Assembly: GCF_900231835.1 (NCBI RefSeq)
Contig: NZ_OCTN01000001.1
Span: forward strand, 372,001-436,000
Direction of reading: 5' to 3'
Origin: Pontivivens marinum
GTDB lineage: Bacteria > Pseudomonadota > Alphaproteobacteria > Rhodobacterales > Rhodobacteraceae
Length of the DNA: 64,000 nucleotides
Shown: positions 9,484 through 39,199 of the stretch, piece after piece
Position numbering within the stretch: position 1 is the first letter of the stretch
Layout of the letters: every line of letters starts with the position of its first letter
Made by a program: the position numbers and the translations under genes
The notes under the pieces: model-generated
Database searches by the model: none
What the model was told of the DNA's origin: nothing
Seen by the model: the letters and a program-made list of their open reading frames with translations, nothing else

Positions 9484-10992
9484 ATGACACCCTTCGCCAA
9501 CCTTGTTGAACAGCTTTCCTTTATGCCTGACGATCAGGACAGGCAGACCCTGCTGCGCCGGTATTTTGCCAATGCATCAGATCAGGACCGCGGCTGGGCG
9601 CTGGCAGTATTGGCGGGCACGTTGCAATTGCCACGGGTCAAGCCCGCATTGCTGAACGGATTGATCGAGGCGCAGGTTGATCCCGTTCTGCTAGACCTGT
9701 CCCGCGCCCATGTTGGCGATCAGGCGGAGACGATCGCTCTGCTATGGCCCGAACCGCAGGACACGACCCCGCCAGCATTGCATGAGGTAGTCACGGCGCT
9801 GTCACGGTCCAGCCGCTCGGATCAGGCGGCGATTGTGACGCGGCTGTTGAACCGATGCGATGCAACGGCGCGGTTAGTATTCATCCGGCTGTGCCTTGGC
9901 CGATTGGCCGTCAGCGTTTCGCCCGCAACCCTGCGTGCGGCGCTATCCGATGCGGCGCATCCGGTTGAGGGGATTGCCCGGCTTTGGCACCAAATGGCCC
10001 CGCCCTATGCTGCGCTGTTCACATGGCTGGATGGCGGCGCGTGGCCGAAAACCACCCCCTACGCCAGCTACAAACCTGCGATGCGCGTTGAACCGTTGAC
10101 CGACGCCCTATCCCCCACCGATTACGAGGCGGAATGGCAGTGGGACGGCATCCGCGTTCAGGTCACCGTGAACGCGACCAACCGCAGGCTATACACAGCG
10201 GCGGGTGATGACATCTCAAACCAGTTTCCCGAAATCATCGACGCGATGCATTGGCACGGCACGGTCGAAGCGATGCTGCTGGTTCAAACCGGTGACGACA
10301 CCCCCTCGCATGAGGAACTGCGCCGCCGGTTGCGTGCCAAGACCCCGCCGAAAAAGCCCGCAACAACCGCCATTCTGCGCCCCTATGACCTGTTGGAACA
10401 GGACGGCGAGGATTTGCGCGATCTGCCATGGCACGCCCGCCGTGACCGGTTGCTGGCAATCGTTGGGTCGCAGGCGTCTCCGTTGCTGCCCTTCACCACT
10501 TGGGCGCAGTTGGGCACCCTGCGAAACAAACCCGCAAAGGGTGCCTGCGGGGTCATGCTGAAACGTCGTGACGCGCCCTATGGCCCGACCGAAACGTGGC
10601 ATAGCTGGCTGGCCGATCCGAAACTGGCGCACTGCGTCCTGCTCTCCGCGCAACGTGGGCAGGGGCGGCAAGCGGCCTATTACACCGAATTCACCTACGG
10701 CGTGTGGGATGGGGCGCAGCGTCTGATCCCGCTCGGCACGGCACAGTTTGGGGGCAGCCCGTCCGAGGCGCTCGCCCTCGACGCCTATATGCGGGACAAT
10801 GCGGTCGGGCGGTTCGGGCCGGTGCGCACGGTGCAACCCGAACTGGTTTTGCAAATCAGCTACGCATCCGTCCAACACAGCACGCGGCATAAATCGGGTA
10901 TCACCCTACGCCGCGCCAGTATCCAGCGTATCAAATGGCACGAGCCCATGACCGAGGCCGCCAGATTATCAGATCTACGCGCCCAGATCTGA
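9484..10992 (+). CDS. Catalytically degenerate ATP-dependent DNA ligase homologue (probable pseudoenzyme)
   Basis: The 502-residue protein aligns along its length with the bacterial ATP-dependent ligase family often called cisplatin-damage-response ligase: an N-terminal helical domain (DQDRGWALAVLAGTLQL, LIEAQVDPVLLDLSRAHVGDQAETIALLWPEP), an adenylation domain and a C-terminal OB domain (RFGPVRTVQPELVLQISY, RHKSGITLRR). The active site is altered throughout. Motif I KxDG is Gln219-Trp-Asp-Gly (codon CAG at 10138-10140); motif III has Glu-Ala-Met (262-264) where Asp-Gly-Glu is expected; motif IV has Cys355 where Glu is expected; motif V KxK is Ser374-x-Leu376. The frame is intact. Start at ATG 9484 matches the family N-terminus; the longer frame from a TTG at 9328 adds unrelated residues. 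The usual partners of this ligase, an exonuclease and an Lhr-type helicase, are not adjacent. Confidence 0.85.
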   Translation: MTPFANLVEQLSFMPDDQDRQTLLRRYFANASDQDRGWALAVLAGTLQLPRVKPALLNGLIEAQVDPVLLDLSRAHVGDQAETIALLWPEPQDTTPPALHEVVTALSRSSRSDQAAIVTRLLNRCDATARLVFIRLCLGRLAVSVSPATLRAALSDAAHPVEGIARLWHQMAPPYAALFTWLDGGAWPKTTPYASYKPAMRVEPLTDALSPTDYEAEWQWDGIRVQVTVNATNRRLYTAAGDDISNQFPEIIDAMHWHGTVEAMLLVQTGDDTPSHEELRRRLRAKTPPKKPATTAILRPYDLLEQDGEDLRDLPWHARRDRLLAIVGSQASPLLPFTTWAQLGTLRNKPAKGACGVMLKRRDAPYGPTETWHSWLADPKLAHCVLLSAQRGQGRQAAYYTEFTYGVWDGAQRLIPLGTAQFGGSPSEALALDAYMRDNAVGRFGPVRTVQPELVLQISYASVQHSTRHKSGITLRRASIQRIKWHEPMTEAARLSDLRAQI

Positions 10993-19525: not shown

Positions 19526-21691
19526 ATGCAGCCCAGCCATCCAGTGACCCGCGACCTCGTACTGATTGGCGGCGGGCACTCACACGCGCTGGTTCTACGC
19601 AAATGGGGCATGGCGCCCCTACCCGGTGTGCGCGTCACCCTGATTTCCCCGCAACCAACCGCGCCCTATACCGGCATGCTGCCCGGCCATGTCGCGGGCC
19701 ATTACAGCCGTCAGGCGCTGGATATCGACCTGATGCGCCTTGCCCGCTTTGCCGGTGCGCGTGTGGTCTTGCAGCCTGCTATCGGTCTGGACCGTGATGC
19801 GCGGCGGGTGATTGTGCCGGAGCGCGCACCCATCGCCTATGACGCGCTGTCCATCAATGTAGGGATCAGCGCAACCCTGCCCACCCTCGCCGGATTTTCC
19901 GATTACGCGGTACCGGCCAAGCCATTGGGCCAATTTGCCGACCGCTGGGCGCAATTCGTGGCCGATGTTGAATCCGGCAAAATGCTGCCGAAAATCGCAA
20001 TTATCGGCGCAGGCGTTGCGGGAGCGGAACTGGCCCTGTCCATGCATCACCGTCTGCGCGCCCACAAACCCCAGATCACGATACTTGAGGCGCAGGACGC
20101 CCTGAAAAGCACTGGCGCCCGTGCGCGTGCCGCGATCAAAAAACATCTGGACCGTGCAGGCATCGTGATCCAAGAGGGCGCGCAAGTTCAGCAAATCACC
20201 GCCGACAGCGTTCTGACCAGCACGGGGGCGGTACACTCAAACTTCACCGTCGGGGCCGCCGGTGCGACACCGCAGGACTGGATCGCGCAAACCGACCTGC
20301 CGCTGACGGACGGATTTATCAATGTCGGCCCGCACCTGAACAGCCCAGCCGACCCGACCATCTTTGCCGGTGGCGATTGTGCGCATATGCTGCACGCCCC
20401 CCGTGAAAAAGCCGGCGTTTTCGCCGTGCGTCAGGCACCGTATCTCTACGACAACCTGCGTGCCACGCTTAGCGGCGGGCGCTTGCGGAGCTATAAACCG
20501 CAGGCGGATTACCTAAAGCTCATCAGCCTTGGCACGAAACAGGCGGTGGTGGATTGGCACGGACTGGCCCCGACGGGCGCACTGGCATGGCGGTGGAAGG
20601 ATCACATCGACACCACCTTCATGCGTAAATTTGACGACCTGCCCCCGATGAACACCCCCGCACAGCCGCCAAAGCTGGCAGCGCAGGGCGTGGCGGAACT
20701 GATCGCCGCGCAACCCATGTGCGGTGGCTGCGGGGCCAAGGTCGGAGCCGCCACCCTGCGCAACCAGATCAGCGCCCTGCCCGCCCCGCATCGCAGCGAC
20801 GTGGCTGAGGGCGCAGGTGACGACGCGGCATTACTACATCACGGCACAGGATTTCAGACCTTCACCACCGACCATTTTCGCGCCTTTATCGATGACCCAT
20901 GGCTGCTGACGCGGATTGCGGCGCTGCATGCGCTAGGCGATGTATGGGCGATGGGCGGGCAACCACAGGCCGCGTTGAGCCAGATCATCCTGCCCCGCAT
21001 GGCAGAAACCGTGCAGGCCGATACGCTGCGCGAAATCATGGACGCCGCCACGATGACATTGCGAGAGGCAGGGGCCGACCTTGTCGGTGGCCATACCTCG
21101 CTAGGTGCGGAAATGACGGTAGGGTTCAGCATTACCGGTTTAGTCGACCACCCCATTCGCCTCAGCGGTGCGCAGGCAGGGGATGCGCTGATCCTGACCA
21201 AGCCATTGGGCACCGGAACCATCCTTGCCGCTGATATGCAGGCACAGGCCCCCGGCCACGCGGTTGCGGCGGCGCTGGCCTCCATGTCGCACAGCTCCGC
21301 ACAGGCGGCGGCGATTCTAGCGCCCGTTGCCCATGCGATGACGGATGTGACGGGATTTGGGCTGGCCGGACACCTGTTTGGCATCCTCGACCTGTGCAAT
21401 CTATCGGCAGATATCAGCGACATCCCGCTGCTGCGCGGCGCGCAGGAACTGGCCGCCGCCGGTCACCGCTCCTCACTCTTTCCGCAAAACACGATGCGCA
21501 TAGCCGAGGTGACAGGCCCCGCCGGTCCGATAAAGGATCTGTTGTTCGACCCCCAAACCTCGGGCGGGATGCTGGCAGCAGTACCTGCGGATAGGGCTAG
21601 CGATATTCTGCGCGCCCTACAGGATGCCGGTTACCCTGCGCGCCAAATCGGCACGCTGTCCAACGGTCCCAGCCAAATCAGGTTGCAGTAA
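19526..21691 (+). CDS. selD: Selenide, water dikinase fused to an NADH-dehydrogenase-like FAD domain
   Basis: A 721-residue two-domain protein. Residues 1 to about 385 are a pyridine-nucleotide disulfide oxidoreductase-type flavoprotein: DLVLIGGGHSHALVL, IGAGVAGAELALSMHHRL and TIFAGGDCAHM for FAD/NAD binding. Residues about 390-721 are SelD, with MCGGCGAKV placing the catalytic Cys402 and Lys405, then GAGDDAALL, DVWAMGGQP, GGHTSLG and DVTGFGLAGH for ATP and metal binding. SelD makes selenophosphate from selenide and ATP; the flavin half may deliver reduced selenium, which is an inference. The nucleophile is Cys, not selenocysteine. The gene overlaps selU tail to tail by 14 bases. Confidence 0.93.
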   Translation: MQPSHPVTRDLVLIGGGHSHALVLRKWGMAPLPGVRVTLISPQPTAPYTGMLPGHVAGHYSRQALDIDLMRLARFAGARVVLQPAIGLDRDARRVIVPERAPIAYDALSINVGISATLPTLAGFSDYAVPAKPLGQFADRWAQFVADVESGKMLPKIAIIGAGVAGAELALSMHHRLRAHKPQITILEAQDALKSTGARARAAIKKHLDRAGIVIQEGAQVQQITADSVLTSTGAVHSNFTVGAAGATPQDWIAQTDLPLTDGFINVGPHLNSPADPTIFAGGDCAHMLHAPREKAGVFAVRQAPYLYDNLRATLSGGRLRSYKPQADYLKLISLGTKQAVVDWHGLAPTGALAWRWKDHIDTTFMRKFDDLPPMNTPAQPPKLAAQGVAELIAAQPMCGGCGAKVGAATLRNQISALPAPHRSDVAEGAGDDAALLHHGTGFQTFTTDHFRAFIDDPWLLTRIAALHALGDVWAMGGQPQAALSQIILPRMAETVQADTLREIMDAATMTLREAGADLVGGHTSLGAEMTVGFSITGLVDHPIRLSGAQAGDALILTKPLGTGTILAADMQAQAPGHAVAAALASMSHSSAQAAAILAPVAHAMTDVTGFGLAGHLFGILDLCNLSADISDIPLLRGAQELAAAGHRSSLFPQNTMRIAEVTGPAGPIKDLLFDPQTSGGMLAAVPADRASDILRALQDAGYPARQIGTLSNGPSQIRLQ

Positions 21692-33130: not shown

Positions 33131-36100
33131 TCAGGTGATGAAGAACAGTTCGTCAACCAGCGCCAGCTCAGCGTCCAGAACTTCCTGCGGGATATCGTCA
33201 CAATCGTCGATGGTTGGCGTATCGCCGTCCAGACCGACCACATCCAGCAGATCATCCAACAGACCGCCCAGACCACTTTCCGCACCAATTGCATAGGTGG
33301 AGATGGTGGCGTTGTAGTCATCGACCAATGCCTCAACCGCATCCTCGGCACCTGTGCTGGACGAACCACCACCGGTGAAGATGAACACGCGGTTATCCGC
33401 ATTTTCATCCATCTCGCTCTGCAACGATGTCAGTGCACCGCTGAGGTTCGAGGAGGAAGCAAGGCTGCCATCGATGTCATATGGGCTGCCGATCTCCGTC
33501 GCGGTGGAACCGTATGTGAAGTAGCTGCTCGATGTGCTGAGGTCGGAGAAGTTATCCCAAACCGTTGGCAGCACTTCACCCAACTGACCTGCCATCTCGA
33601 TCGAAAGGTCGATCCAGCTGGTGCTGCCGTCGCCGTTGAAATCGCAATCGAGCGACGCAACATTGACGAACATCGAGGCCGAAGCATCGATCAGGAAGTA
33701 GTAGTTCACATCTGCCGAAACGCCGGCATCCGAACCCTCACCATTCACAACGATCTCGATCGTAGCGGAATCACCCTCACCAGCCGCGTCAGATGCGGAG
33801 TAGTTGAAGGAGACGATCTCGCTCTGACCATCGTTCAGTGCAAGGAACTGATCGCTAGGATCGAAGGCAAACGTACCGTCTGCCTCAACCGTCAGCGTAC
33901 CGGTCCAGCCCTTGCCAGCCGAGGTCAGCTCAATCGCCGCACCCGGAACAAGCGTCTGACCCGCAACTGTTTCGATCGTGATCGTGTCACCGATGTCATT
34001 ATCGGTCACCAGAGCCGACAGATCGCCAGTGGCGACTTCCGTCTCAAGGATCTCGATGATCTGGCCAGTCGCAACCGGTGGCGTGTTTGGTGCTGCATCA
34101 TCAGCGCCAGTGATCGTAACCGTTACGGACTTCGTATCGGTCTGGACCACACCACCATCGCTGGATTCAACAGTGTACTGGAAGGTGAACGTATCGATAT
34201 CACCGGCATTCATGATCTCAGCGGCTTGTGCGCTAGGCTGATAGCGCATCGAACCATCAACGAAGACCGTCAACGTACCGGTCAGGCCGTTATCGGTGAT
34301 GATGTTGTTCGCAACAACATTACCGAAGCGACCGGAGGTCGAAAGGCTCATCCCGTCGCTGATACCAGCCAACGTAACCGCATCACCATCTGGATCGCTT
34401 GCGCCATCCATAATGTTGACGTTCAGCAGCTCGGTGTCCTCATCCGTGGTGTATGCCTGATCGATAGCAATCGGCGGAGAGTTGATGCCGTTGATATCAA
34501 TCGTTGCAGTCGCGGTGGAGGACTGAACCGTGGTTCCGCCAGTCGATTCTACGGTGAACTCGAAGGTGATGAAATCAGGCTGATCCTGATCCAGATCGGT
34601 CGAGGTGGACACATAGGTGAATGTGCCATCCGCGTTGATCGTCAGCAGGCCAGTGCCACCCTCGGTGGTTGTGACTGCAACAGCCTCACCGATTGCGCCC
34701 AACGATGTGGAGACCAGCGAAATCGCATCGCCATCCGCATCCGTGGAGTTTGCAAGCAGATCGCCCGAAACCGTGGAGATTTCGCCAATGTTGTTCTGCT
34801 CGAACACCACCACACCAACATCGCCAGCAATCGGCGCAACGTTCACGCCGTTGATGTTGATCGTTGCCTGCGAGGAGGAGAACTGCTGCGTCACACCGCC
34901 CGAGGAAACTGCGGTGAATTCAATCACCACCATGTCGCTCTCGTTCAGGTCCATGGAGCTGTCCAGAGCGGTCAATGTGAACGAACCGTCCGCACCAATC
35001 GTCAGTTCAGCGTCATGACCGCTGGTGGTTGTGACAATAACCGTCTCCCCCACGGCACCGACCGAGGTCGAGAACACAGTGATCGCATCGCCATCAGCAT
35101 CCGTAGCACCGTCCAGCAGGTTGCCAGTGACAACGTTGCTCAGGCCCTGATCGTTCGCCTCGGATATCTGGAAGGTCGAGTTGACCGTCACAGGCGCCAC
35201 GTTCACGCCGTTGATGTTGATCGTCGCCGTTGCCGTGTCGGATTGCGTAACCACGCCACCGGTGGATTCAACCGTGAAGTCGAAGGTGATGCTGTCTGCC
35301 TCACCCAGGTCCAGGCTGTCATCGGTGGATACGAACGAGAATGTACCATCGGTGTTGATCGTCAACTCACCGGTACGACCGCCATCGGTGGTGACGGAAA
35401 CCGTATCACCAATTGTGCCAACCGTGGTGGATGCCAGAACCAGCGTGTCACCGTCGATATCCGTTGCATCGAACAACAGGTTGCCAGCAGCGGTGCTGGT
35501 CAGACCCTGATCGTTCATCTCGTTCAGCGTGATGCTCTGCGAGATAGCAACCGGCGCATCGTTCAGGCCGTTGATGGTGATCGTCACCGTCTTTGTGTCG
35601 GTCTGAACCGTGGTGCCGCCCGACGATGCGATTGTGTAATCGAAGGTCAGGGTATCGGTTTCGGTCAGGTCCAGCGCATCGCTGGTCGATGTGAAGGTGA
35701 ACGTACCGTCATCATTGATCTGAAGAAGACCGCTTTGGCCGCCTTCAGTCGTGACCAGACGTGTACCGCCAATCGCACCCAGTGTGGTGGATTGCAGGGA
35801 CATCGCATCGCCATCCGCATCAACCGCACCGGCCAGCAGATCGCCGTCGATTGCGTTTGGTGTGGTTGGGGCGGTGGATGCCTCATCCATGCTCAGATCG
35901 ATGTTCTGCGCCGCAGGACCAACATTCACACCAGCGATGGTAACAGTCGCGGTCTGCGTGTCGAACTGATCCGTTACACCACCCGACGACACAACAGTGA
36001 AGTCGAAGGTGTAGCTGTCAGTCTCGCCCAGATCCATGCTGTCATCAGCCGAGGACAGTGTGAACGAACCATCAGCAGCCACTGTCAGCAGCGCCGCAAC

Positions 36101-39100
36101 GCCCGCTGCGGTGGTTACTGCCAGCGTCTCACCCAGTGCACCGGCGGAGATACCGGAGACTGTGATCGTGTCGCCATCCGCATCAGTCGCGCCGTTCAGC
36201 AGGTTGCCCGCTGCGGTGCTGTTCTGACCCTCAGCGTTCTGCTCGCTGATTGCGAAGCTCTGCGCCGTGGCAACAGGACCTTCGTTCAGGCCAGTGATGG
36301 TGATCGTCGCAGTGGACGATGCCGTCGCCTGACCGTCAGTGGCGGTATAGCCGAAGGTGATTGTGTCTGTCTGACCCATATCCAGATCAACACCATCCGG
36401 CGTGAAGGTGAACGAACCGTCTGCGTTAACGATCAGCGTACCGGTGTTGCCGCCATCGGTGGTGACGCTAACGCCCTCACCCAATGCGCCAGCGGTGATG
36501 CTCTCAACAGTGATGACATCGCCATCCGCGTCGGTCGCATCGTCCAGCAGGTTGCCGGAAACAGGTGTCGCCTCATCGGTCAGCGCGGCAACAACCTCAA
36601 CAACTGGTGCAACATTGTCTGTTACGCCGGTCACTGTGATGGTCAGCGTGCCGTCAGCCGAGGCCGTTTCACCAGCAGTCTCACCCGAGGTGCGGGTCAT
36701 CACGACGTTATCGATACGGCCGCCATAGCTGTCGCTGACTGGCAGACCCTCGAATGCGATGCGGTGATCGCCCTCAGTCAGGTCGAAATTGACCGTCAGG
36801 GACTTCTTCTCCAGATCGTCGGAGTTCAGCGTTGCAACAACAACCCCGTCAACCAGAACCGAAACACCCGAAGTGTCGTCGATTTCGCCGTTCAGGGCGC
36901 GTGCATAGAAGTCGAGGCTCAGCTCGAAGGAACCGTCGGAACCAGCGTAGACATCCTGATACAGCGTGCTGTTAAAGCGCGCGTCCAGCTCAGCCACGGT
37001 GTTGTTGGTGTCGATGTTTTCCGAACCGCCAACGTTACCGCTTTGCAGTTCGATATCGCCTTCCAGAACCGACCAGCCCTCAACCAGATCCTGATCGAGA
37101 TAGTTCCACTGACCGTCTGTGCCGCTGGTGTTGAACAGCAGCTCGGAACCGCCACCCTCGAAGTCGCCGTTGACGATCAGGCGATCATCAGGAGTCGCAA
37201 CAGTCGTGGTCGCAGTTGCAGTGTAGTTCAGGCTGATTGTGTCAACGTCGCCGTCGTTCAGCTCCTCGAAGCCTTCGTTAGGCTCGAAGGTGTAGGAACC
37301 GTCTGCGTTCACTGTCAGCAGACCGGTCAGACCACCCTCGGAGGTCACTTCAAAGCTCTCGCCAACAACGCCGCCCTCGATCGCGGAAACGGCCAGCGTC
37401 CCCTCGGTCGTTGCGTCGTTCTCCAGGATGTTGCCCGAAACAGCGGTATCTTCGTCAGTGGTGTTTGTGTCGTTCTCGACCGAGATAACCGGCCCGTCCG
37501 ACGCGCCGTCGATGGTCACAGTGACCGTCGCGGTGTCGTAAACATAGGCAGGGACTTCCTCAGTCGAACCCAGCACCAGATCGTCGATGCCGCCGGACCC
37601 CTTGAGCACAACAACCATGTACGAAACGTCTACACCGTTCAGCGCAACTTCGTTGATGGAGTTGTTGGAGCCGCCGCTGACCCACTGCTCGCCAGTCTTG
37701 CACCAGTTCTCATCAAAGAAACCGATCCAGACACCTTCTTCGTTGTCTACGATGGTCAGCGAGCTGACATCAGTAGGCTCATCGAAGGAGAAGCGGATTT
37801 CGCCGCCAGCAGCGTTATCATCAGGATCCCACTCGTGGCCGTCCTCGGAGATGATCAGCAGGTTGCCCTGCGTATCAGTCGCCAGATCCCAGTCGCCGCC
37901 GGTCGGGTTGTTGGAGTCGAAGATCATCGCCTCGTCAATGCACTTGTTATAGGCATGAACGTTGATGGTAACACCGTCGATCTGGTTGGTGATCGTCTCA
38001 CCGGTGTTGAACTCTTCGAAGTCGATTGTGCGTGTGCTGTCGATGGTTGTGAAACCATCCTGCGACTTAACAGTGAAGTCGAAGCTGAACGTGTCCGTCT
38101 CACCCTCGGCCATGTCGTTCGCATCAGCACCCGGAGTATAGGTGTATGTGCCGTCTGCGTTCACAACAACCGTACCGGTATAGCCGTTCGCAGTGGTAAC
38201 CTCGATTGCCTCACCGATCGCGCCCAGCGATGTGCCGTCCAACGTGACAACGTCGCCGTCTACGTCGAATGCGCCGTCCATAACGTTGCCAGTAACGGCC
38301 TCGTCCTCGGAGGTGCGAACCGCCTGATCAACAGCAACAGGCGCATCGTTTACGCCGGTAACTTCGATGGTCAGTGTCGCGGTATCTGTCAGGCCGTCGG
38401 AATTCAGAACCGTGTAGTCGAGGGAGACAGTTGCCGTCTCGCCTGCACCCAGTGCATCGAAGTCGCCAGCAGCATCGAAATCAACGGAACCGTCAGCAGC
38501 AACCAGAACGCGGCCGCCATCTTCCAGATCGATCCAAACGCCGACCAGCGATGCGGAGCCGTCGATTTCCTTGACGACCAGCGCCTCGGATGTGTTGGAC
38601 GCATCGTTCAGCAGAACGTTGATGTCGTTATCGCCAAAGCCTTCGCCCTGCATAACAGCAAGGAAGTCGTCATCCGCATCAGGCGCCGAAGCATGCGAAC
38701 CGATCTCACCGCCGTCTAGGCAGGCATAGCTCAGCGAGCCACAATCGCCGTAGTAGCATGCAGCGGTCAGCTCAACGCCCTGCGCAGGAACTGCACCGTA
38801 GAACGCGAAGTGATCGTTGCCGCCGTCAGGCAGGTTCGTGCCCTCGATCTCGATCATGTAGTAGGTGTTGCCATCATCGCCGTGCACGACGAAGTAGCCT
38901 TCCCAGTAGACGTTACCGGCATCGGTCCAGTTTCCGTCCTCGTTCAGCCAACCGGACTGATTGTCCGAACCCTGCTCGTTCGCATTACGACCACTGTCGC
39001 CAGCCAGACCGGAATCATTGTCGCTGACATACATCGTCGCATCAGCACCCGAATAGGTGAAGCTGTCGCCGGTGCTGAAGTTGCTGTCAGTACGGATCGA

Positions 39101-39154
39101 GTTCTCATCGATAACCGTGAAACTGTTCCAGGAATAATTGCTACTGCGGCCCAT
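33131..39154 (-). CDS. Giant secreted repeat protein with cadherin-like/VCBS repeats and C-terminal vWA domain
   Basis: A 2007-residue acidic protein without an N-terminal signal peptide, consistent with type I secretion. Order: an N-terminal module (about 1-150, ending FAFYGAVPAQGVEL) resembling those before Hint domains in rhodobacterial secreted proteins; about eleven Ig-like repeats of roughly 115-120 residues with DADGD and NADGTFTF-type motifs; two non-repeat modules inserted among them (about 395-550, with three cysteines; and about 655-830, LIVNGDFEGGG...GRIDNVVMTR, a carbohydrate-binding-like jelly-roll); then a vWA domain from about 1815 with a MIDAS DASAS. I see no RTX nonapeptides. 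The start at 39154 has AGAGGA upstream. No type I secretion genes are in the window. Likely surface adhesin or matrix protein. Confidence 0.88.
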   Translation of the reverse strand: MGRSSNYSWNSFTVIDENSIRTDSNFSTGDSFTYSGADATMYVSDNDSGLAGDSGRNANEQGSDNQSGWLNEDGNWTDAGNVYWEGYFVVHGDDGNTYYMIEIEGTNLPDGGNDHFAFYGAVPAQGVELTAACYYGDCGSLSYACLDGGEIGSHASAPDADDDFLAVMQGEGFGDNDINVLLNDASNTSEALVVKEIDGSASLVGVWIDLEDGGRVLVAADGSVDFDAAGDFDALGAGETATVSLDYTVLNSDGLTDTATLTIEVTGVNDAPVAVDQAVRTSEDEAVTGNVMDGAFDVDGDVVTLDGTSLGAIGEAIEVTTANGYTGTVVVNADGTYTYTPGADANDMAEGETDTFSFDFTVKSQDGFTTIDSTRTIDFEEFNTGETITNQIDGVTINVHAYNKCIDEAMIFDSNNPTGGDWDLATDTQGNLLIISEDGHEWDPDDNAAGGEIRFSFDEPTDVSSLTIVDNEEGVWIGFFDENWCKTGEQWVSGGSNNSINEVALNGVDVSYMVVVLKGSGGIDDLVLGSTEEVPAYVYDTATVTVTIDGASDGPVISVENDTNTTDEDTAVSGNILENDATTEGTLAVSAIEGGVVGESFEVTSEGGLTGLLTVNADGSYTFEPNEGFEELNDGDVDTISLNYTATATTTVATPDDRLIVNGDFEGGGSELLFNTSGTDGQWNYLDQDLVEGWSVLEGDIELQSGNVGGSENIDTNNTVAELDARFNSTLYQDVYAGSDGSFELSLDFYARALNGEIDDTSGVSVLVDGVVVATLNSDDLEKKSLTVNFDLTEGDHRIAFEGLPVSDSYGGRIDNVVMTRTSGETAGETASADGTLTITVTGVTDNVAPVVEVVAALTDEATPVSGNLLDDATDADGDVITVESITAGALGEGVSVTTDGGNTGTLIVNADGSFTFTPDGVDLDMGQTDTITFGYTATDGQATASSTATITITGLNEGPVATAQSFAISEQNAEGQNSTAAGNLLNGATDADGDTITVSGISAGALGETLAVTTAAGVAALLTVAADGSFTLSSADDSMDLGETDSYTFDFTVVSSGGVTDQFDTQTATVTIAGVNVGPAAQNIDLSMDEASTAPTTPNAIDGDLLAGAVDADGDAMSLQSTTLGAIGGTRLVTTEGGQSGLLQINDDGTFTFTSTSDALDLTETDTLTFDYTIASSGGTTVQTDTKTVTITINGLNDAPVAISQSITLNEMNDQGLTSTAAGNLLFDATDIDGDTLVLASTTVGTIGDTVSVTTDGGRTGELTINTDGTFSFVSTDDSLDLGEADSITFDFTVESTGGVVTQSDTATATININGVNVAPVTVNSTFQISEANDQGLSNVVTGNLLDGATDADGDAITVFSTSVGAVGETVIVTTTSGHDAELTIGADGSFTLTALDSSMDLNESDMVVIEFTAVSSGGVTQQFSSSQATININGVNVAPIAGDVGVVVFEQNNIGEISTVSGDLLANSTDADGDAISLVSTSLGAIGEAVAVTTTEGGTGLLTINADGTFTYVSTSTDLDQDQPDFITFEFTVESTGGTTVQSSTATATIDINGINSPPIAIDQAYTTDEDTELLNVNIMDGASDPDGDAVTLAGISDGMSLSTSGRFGNVVANNIITDNGLTGTLTVFVDGSMRYQPSAQAAEIMNAGDIDTFTFQYTVESSDGGVVQTDTKSVTVTITGADDAAPNTPPVATGQIIEILETEVATGDLSALVTDNDIGDTITIETVAGQTLVPGAAIELTSAGKGWTGTLTVEADGTFAFDPSDQFLALNDGQSEIVSFNYSASDAAGEGDSATIEIVVNGEGSDAGVSADVNYYFLIDASASMFVNVASLDCDFNGDGSTSWIDLSIEMAGQLGEVLPTVWDNFSDLSTSSSYFTYGSTATEIGSPYDIDGSLASSSNLSGALTSLQSEMDENADNRVFIFTGGGSSSTGAEDAVEALVDDYNATISTYAIGAESGLGGLLDDLLDVVGLDGDTPTIDDCDDIPQEVLDAELALVDELFFIT
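34060..36620 (-). repeat. Tandem ~360-bp repeat units inside the adhesin gene
   Basis: Unit boundaries (the [AGP]PV/I linker after TI-x-G-x-N) recur near 36600, 36270, 35920, 35560, 35205, 34840, 34475 and 34060, a spacing of about 330-415 and mostly 360 bases. Units are diverged at the DNA level but retain DATDADGD, SVTTDGG and NADGTF-type cores. The region is prone to recombination and assembly collapse. Confidence 0.8.
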
Positions 39155-39199
39155 ACATTCGATCCTCTTTTGCAGCACTTGCTGCGTGTCCCTTGAAGC

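Follow-up and report, generated by a model that had tools for sequence, protein, structure and literature searches.

A LigB-type DNA ligase homologue of Pontivivens marinum that has lost its catalytic residues and remains under selective constraint

The role of the cluster formed by LigB, an exonuclease, and Lhr-Core is not known (PMC10140301). Proteins in which the exonuclease and LigB are fused occur naturally in Opitutus and in Dry Valley metagenomes (PMC10140301), and these fusions support a physical partnership of the two enzymes. Catalytically dead ligases have been studied in eukaryotes. In cells, dead human ligase IV (K273A, 5XK) still promotes joining, and it stimulates another ligase (PMC9638927). 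Catalytic mutants of yeast Dnl4 are reported to support imprecise joining (PMC3694833). Here we analysed a window of 64,000 nucleotides from Pontivivens marinum (NZ_OCTN01000001.1, positions 372,001 to 436,000), which encodes a LigB-type homologue with its catalytic residues lost (hereafter the pseudo-ligase). An earlier sequence-only reading had described this protein as kept as a fold and not as a ligase.

The open reading frame starts with an ATG at 9484, which lines up with the start (MTPFA) of the congener proteins, and runs without interruption to a stop codon at 10990-10992 (Table 1). The protein scored 469.3 bits against TIGR04120 ("cisplatin damage response"), above the curated cut-off of 400. 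Pfam placed the DNA-binding, adenylation, and OB domains in the correct order, with the N- and C-terminal matches below cut-off, and these domains keep 19 of 26, 34 of 51, and 26 of 45 conserved columns, respectively. The AlphaFold2 model has the three ligase domains with a mean pLDDT of 89, and the solved folds nearest to it are archaeal ligases and human Lig1 (ligase 1). Thus, the uninterrupted 502-residue frame with three domains in the sequence-only reading was borne out. The Pfam and TIGR04120 profile searches revealed neither a new domain nor a fusion, and PADLOC gave no match that would place the protein in anti-phage defence.

Table 1. Features of the pseudo-ligase gene in the window and degenerate ligases in four other genera
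Genome, locus	Feature	Position	Strand	Basis
P. marinum	Pseudo-ligase ORF, LigB-type (TIGR04120) ATP-dependent DNA ligase homologue, 502 aa	9484..10992	+	Profile, AlphaFold2 model, congener-aligned start
P. marinum	Helical N-terminal DNA-binding domain, aa 1-195	9484..10068	+	PF04675 24.5 bits (cut-off 24.6); helices in model
P. marinum	Adenylation (nucleotidyltransferase) domain, aa 196-385, catalytic residues lost	10069..10638	+	PF01068 42 bits
P. marinum	Motif I E-W-Q-W-D-G-I-R, Gln219 (10138-10140) for AMP-accepting Lys, remainder intact	10132..10155	+	Alignment
P. marinum	Motif Ia Arg239 to Ala	10198..10200	+	Alignment
P. marinum	Motif III D-G-E to E-A-M, aa 262-264	10267..10275	+	Alignment
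P. marinum	Motif IV without Glu; Cys355 or deletion, alignment-dependent	10546..10548	+	Alignment
P. marinum	Motif V K-W-K to S-W-L, aa 374-376	10603..10611	+	Alignment
P. marinum	OB domain, motif VI degenerate, aa 386-502	10639..10989	+	PF04679 19.1 bits (cut-off 27.5)
P. marinum	Motif VI R-W-D-K to K-W-H-E, aa 484-487	10933..10944	+	Alignment
G067, L175	Full length; motif I AERAWDGLR, Lys to Ala; without motif IV Glu/Lys and motif V Lys	C25
G296, L205/L209	Full length; motif I AEHRWDGVR, Lys to Arg; motif III Glu to Thr, motif IV Glu to Asp, first motif V Lys lost	C1
G260, L173	Lys to Arg; motif I region FPRMDQPR; motif III region deleted; without motif V Lys	C20
G104, L174	About 263 aa; adenylation domain deleted in frame; DNA-binding part and OB-like end remain	C17

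The losses at Q219, M264, S374, and L376 given in the sequence-only reading are correct in the alignment. It had also given Cys355 in place of the motif IV Glu. The Glu is absent in either case, but the substitution depends on the alignment, and in one alignment the Glu is deleted and Cys355 falls opposite the preceding Leu. Further losses had been missed, namely R239A, D262E/G263A, F477R/P478A/R479S, R484K, D486H, and K487E, the last six of them in the motif VI region. Lys219 is present in all 128 aligned relatives (80 of them from named alphaproteobacterial and other contigs), including three congeners, and so are the motif Ia Arg, the motif III Glu, and both motif V lysines. Of the 104 positions that at least 95% of the relatives conserve, the pseudo-ligase is changed at 36, while every other member loses 0 to 9. 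The loss rate is 7/7 at catalytic positions versus 36/115 at other conserved positions (Fisher p 5e-4). Since all relatives keep Lys219 and the catalytic positions are preferentially lost, the losses are beyond chance. The motif I neighbours E217, W220, D221, G222, and R224 are kept, together with Y301 and K360 of the pocket. DNA-contact-type residues are also lost (K135R, R142A, G144S, and R285A), and therefore DNA binding may be weakened. By profile the protein belongs to TIGR04120, but it is without the catalytic features of TIGR04120, and the name "ligase" should not be applied to it.

Most of the lost catalytic codons differ from those of the congener at two to three bases, which rules out a sequencing artefact, including the base errors at several motifs that the sequence-only reading had considered. 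The pseudo-ligase gene is the only gene with an ATP-ligase domain found in the genome (3.73 Mb, 99.8% complete), and a second intact LigB copy, which might have lain beside the exonuclease and helicase genes, was not found there. The gene shares its slot, between L-serine deaminase and a conserved small protein, with the intact ligase of congener G002. Most neighbours in this syntenic stretch are about 70-90% identical to those of G002 and the ligase only about 51%, while the congener ligases are 84-86% identical among themselves. The maximum-likelihood tree groups the pseudo-ligase with its three congeners at 100%. A recent import or a paralogue was ruled out by this placement and the synteny with the intact copy, and the gene can be regarded as a vertical orthologue of the congener ligases on a fast branch. 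Closer orthologues with the same losses were found neither in four genomes of the genus, 395 genomes of the same bacterial family (one per genus), and a first contig scan, nor in plasmids (best match 42% identical). A DNA pattern for a non-Lys motif I matched only this copy in the 395 genomes; the pattern was too narrow and missed the degenerate ligase of G067 (Table 1), so its single match is no evidence of uniqueness. Elsewhere in the window, a VCBS/Bap-type repeat adhesin of 2015 aa (33131-39178, minus strand) overlaps a long open frame on the opposite strand (1497 aa; 34226-38719, plus strand), and a pyridine-nucleotide oxidoreductase is fused to a SelD (selenide, water dikinase) domain (19526-21691, plus strand).

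Because of saturation, branch lengths were unstable in models of single genes, and the helicase, exonuclease, and ligase genes of five genomes were therefore fitted jointly, with shared branch lengths, in a purpose-written codon model. Synonymous divergence was near saturation, so the omega values are approximate: on the P. marinum branch omega was 0.29 for the ligase versus 0.047 in the background, and 0.14 for the exonuclease versus 0.063 (2dlnL 17), while the helicase showed no rise. For the ligase, both omega = 1 (2dlnL 65) and omega equal to the background (2dlnL 70) were rejected, and the dN/dS test proposed in the sequence-only reading thus indicated a constrained protein. When full neutrality was simulated for long enough to give the observed divergence, the mean number of stop codons was 4.6 to 8.6 and the probability of no stop was at most 0.014. 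The pseudo-ligase has no stop or frameshift despite about 48% amino-acid change, and each of the roughly seven indels that distinguish it from the nearest congener, G002, has a length divisible by three. The rejection of omega = 1, the stop simulation, and the in-frame indels make a simple decaying pseudogene unlikely. The sequence-only reading had reasoned that relatives with Lys219 could reveal a recent decaying allele. Relatives do have this residue, but the divergence of the copy is old and its frame has stayed open. A pseudoenzyme combines lost catalytic residues with a protein constrained by selection, and the gene appears to fit this description; the frame disruption or neutral evolution of a pseudogene does not seem to apply to it.

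Following the exceptions to ligase-exonuclease co-occurrence and the low scorers among the 395 genomes, we identified four further degenerate LigB-type ligases in other genera (Table 1). The residue-by-residue reading stopped short of some 150 mid-scoring ligases in the family, which makes five pseudo-ligases a lower bound. Homologues without the motif I Lys, which the sequence-only reading had proposed to collect, are present in four other genera, and there are none among the 128 aligned relatives. Pfam recognised no domain in the mini-protein of G104, and in its structural model the DNA-binding part is good and the OB part is of low confidence. The exonuclease gene is directly upstream of the dead ligase gene in G067, G260, and G104, while in G296 it is elsewhere in the genome. 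The ligase tree requires at least three independent inactivations, with long branches that leave the exact number unsure. The ligases of G260, G104, and G296 join in this tree, possibly by long-branch attraction, and the exonuclease tree separates G104 from G260. Omega = 1 was also rejected for the ligases of G067 (2dlnL 42) and G296 (2dlnL 60). The view that the protein was kept as a fold and not as a ligase is thus supported by the open frame, the confident fold, the rejection of omega = 1, and parallels in at least two other lineages. One ligase looks different. In G272 (L194/L210, C7:7830-9410) the gene has two in-frame TAG codons and its catalytic motifs are intact. It reads as ordinary decay or sequencing error and the mirror image of the pseudo-ligases, since stops with intact motifs are the usual signature of decay and the opposite of theirs.

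The P. marinum genome encodes on other contigs a TIGR04122 ligase-associated exonuclease (417 bits) and a TIGR04121 ligase-associated helicase (1010 bits), both above cut-off. The sequence-only reading was right that these partners are not adjacent, and it had taken this to fit a change of job. The two genes are equally dispersed in the three congeners with intact ligases, and therefore the layout is no sign of a changed job. Of the 395 genomes, with the ligase defined by E < 1e-30 with the window protein as query, 209 have the ligase, 214 the exonuclease, 208 both, and 7 only one of them, and about 180 genomes are without both; the two presence lists were matched by eye and verified against the totals. 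By this co-occurrence, a genome with the LigB-type ligase gene almost always has the exonuclease gene as well. All five pseudo-ligase genomes keep the exonuclease. Four of these exonucleases were read (P. marinum, G067, G260, and G104), and they keep the HxHxDH, SGD, and SDH motifs and the late THG motif, which in G104 alone reads MHG. Among full-length exonucleases of the family, those of the five genomes score near the bottom, a pattern that is descriptive only, as the genomes to inspect were picked partly by exonuclease score.

Two other observations concern the exonuclease. Position 201 (numbering of the P. marinum exonuclease, L074) is Gly in 128 of 139 exonucleases. It is changed in the four read from pseudo-ligase genomes (H, P, P, and P), and also in G033 and in some genomes with intact ligases. 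The position might mark a loop for ligase contact or for substrate. Furthermore, many Phaeobacter strains carry the ligase-exonuclease pair on plasmids (e.g., NC_018291.1:57078-58625), a possible transfer route for the module.

We favour, with reserve, the explanation that the protein is a natural pseudo-ligase, a vertically inherited LigB that lost its chemistry and is still selected, most likely as a non-catalytic partner of the TIGR04122 exonuclease. It no longer has the residues needed to adenylate itself, to adenylate nicks, and to seal, while selection still acts on it as a protein. The remaining DNA-binding and OB domains would hold a break or nick, and the pseudo-ligase would place or regulate the exonuclease. 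The final seal would be made by another ligase, presumably the NAD-dependent LigA. We infer the contact with the exonuclease, the DNA binding, and the identity of the sealing ligase. The separate location of the exonuclease gene in P. marinum counts against a partnership, and the faster exonuclease also fits a fading of the whole module.

Such fading is the strongest competing explanation, though an unlikely one: the LigB-exonuclease module would be under relaxed selection and the gene a slowly decaying remnant, open by chance. The joint acceleration of ligase and exonuclease with a steady helicase is as expected from it, as are the low exonuclease scores in genomes with dead ligases and the loss of so many conserved positions, fold-type residues included; the many genomes without both genes show that the module is dispensable. 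Against this, omega = 1 was rejected, and the open frame has a probability of about 0.014 or less from stops alone and a lower one with the in-frame indels. Moreover, the catalytic motifs of the exonuclease are intact, open-frame dead ligases recur in at least three lineages, and the broken G272 allele has the opposite signature. It is improbable that the protein is a non-catalytic nucleotide-binding sensor, as the sequence-only reading had suggested, or an unrelated DNA-binding regulator. The motif I neighbours and pocket residues kept in the window copy would suit a sensor, but nucleotide binding is not common to the parallel cases, as in G067, G260, and G104 the ligase is missing additional residues of the pocket or the entire adenylation domain, and neither role gains from a new domain or fusion. 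The deletion of the adenylation domain in G104 makes a sensor less likely as a general answer, and makes it likelier that the DNA-binding and OB parts are what matters. Finally, migrated catalytic lysines occur in other enzyme families and motif IV Lys360 is kept, but residual ligation chemistry by displaced residues is very improbable because, besides the nucleophile, the acids of motifs III and IV, the two lysines of motif V, and motif VI are affected by the loss.

If the pseudo-ligase is indeed a partner of the exonuclease, the same may hold more widely. Tentatively, and with less confidence than for P. marinum itself, we suggest that across the family the ligase-nuclease pair could repeatedly have evolved into a complex of nuclease and dead ligase, with the adenylation domain discarded once, the dead ligase as a DNA-positioning subunit, and sealing handed over. 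Where a lineage retains the nuclease and the ligase protein without ligation, the structural role of the ligase is separated from its chemical role. Such lineages lead to a testable claim, that the essential contribution of LigB may be to hold DNA for the exonuclease and not to seal it.

Compared with active TIGR04120 ligases, the pseudo-ligase has the same sequence family (469 bits) and three-domain architecture, is syntenic with the congener's intact copy, and has exonuclease and helicase genes elsewhere in the genome, but it is without the motif I Lys, the motif III and IV Glu, and the motif V and VI Lys, and self-adenylation would not be expected. The exonuclease-LigB fusions (PMC10140301) physically link a nuclease and a ligase of the same families. 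Their ligase part is treated as active, whereas here the ligase is a separate gene with catalytic residues lost. Structural roles of dead ligases are already known from engineered ligase IV, and no report of natural pseudo-DNA-ligases was found in the open-access subset of the literature. Engineered dead ligase IV (PMC9638927) and, reportedly, the Dnl4 mutants (PMC3694833) have in common with the pseudo-ligase a ligase fold without adenylation, and they are a precedent for helping another ligase to join. They were made in the laboratory from a eukaryotic NHEJ ligase that has partners of its own, while the pseudo-ligase is natural, bacterial, and repeatedly evolved, with a putative function.
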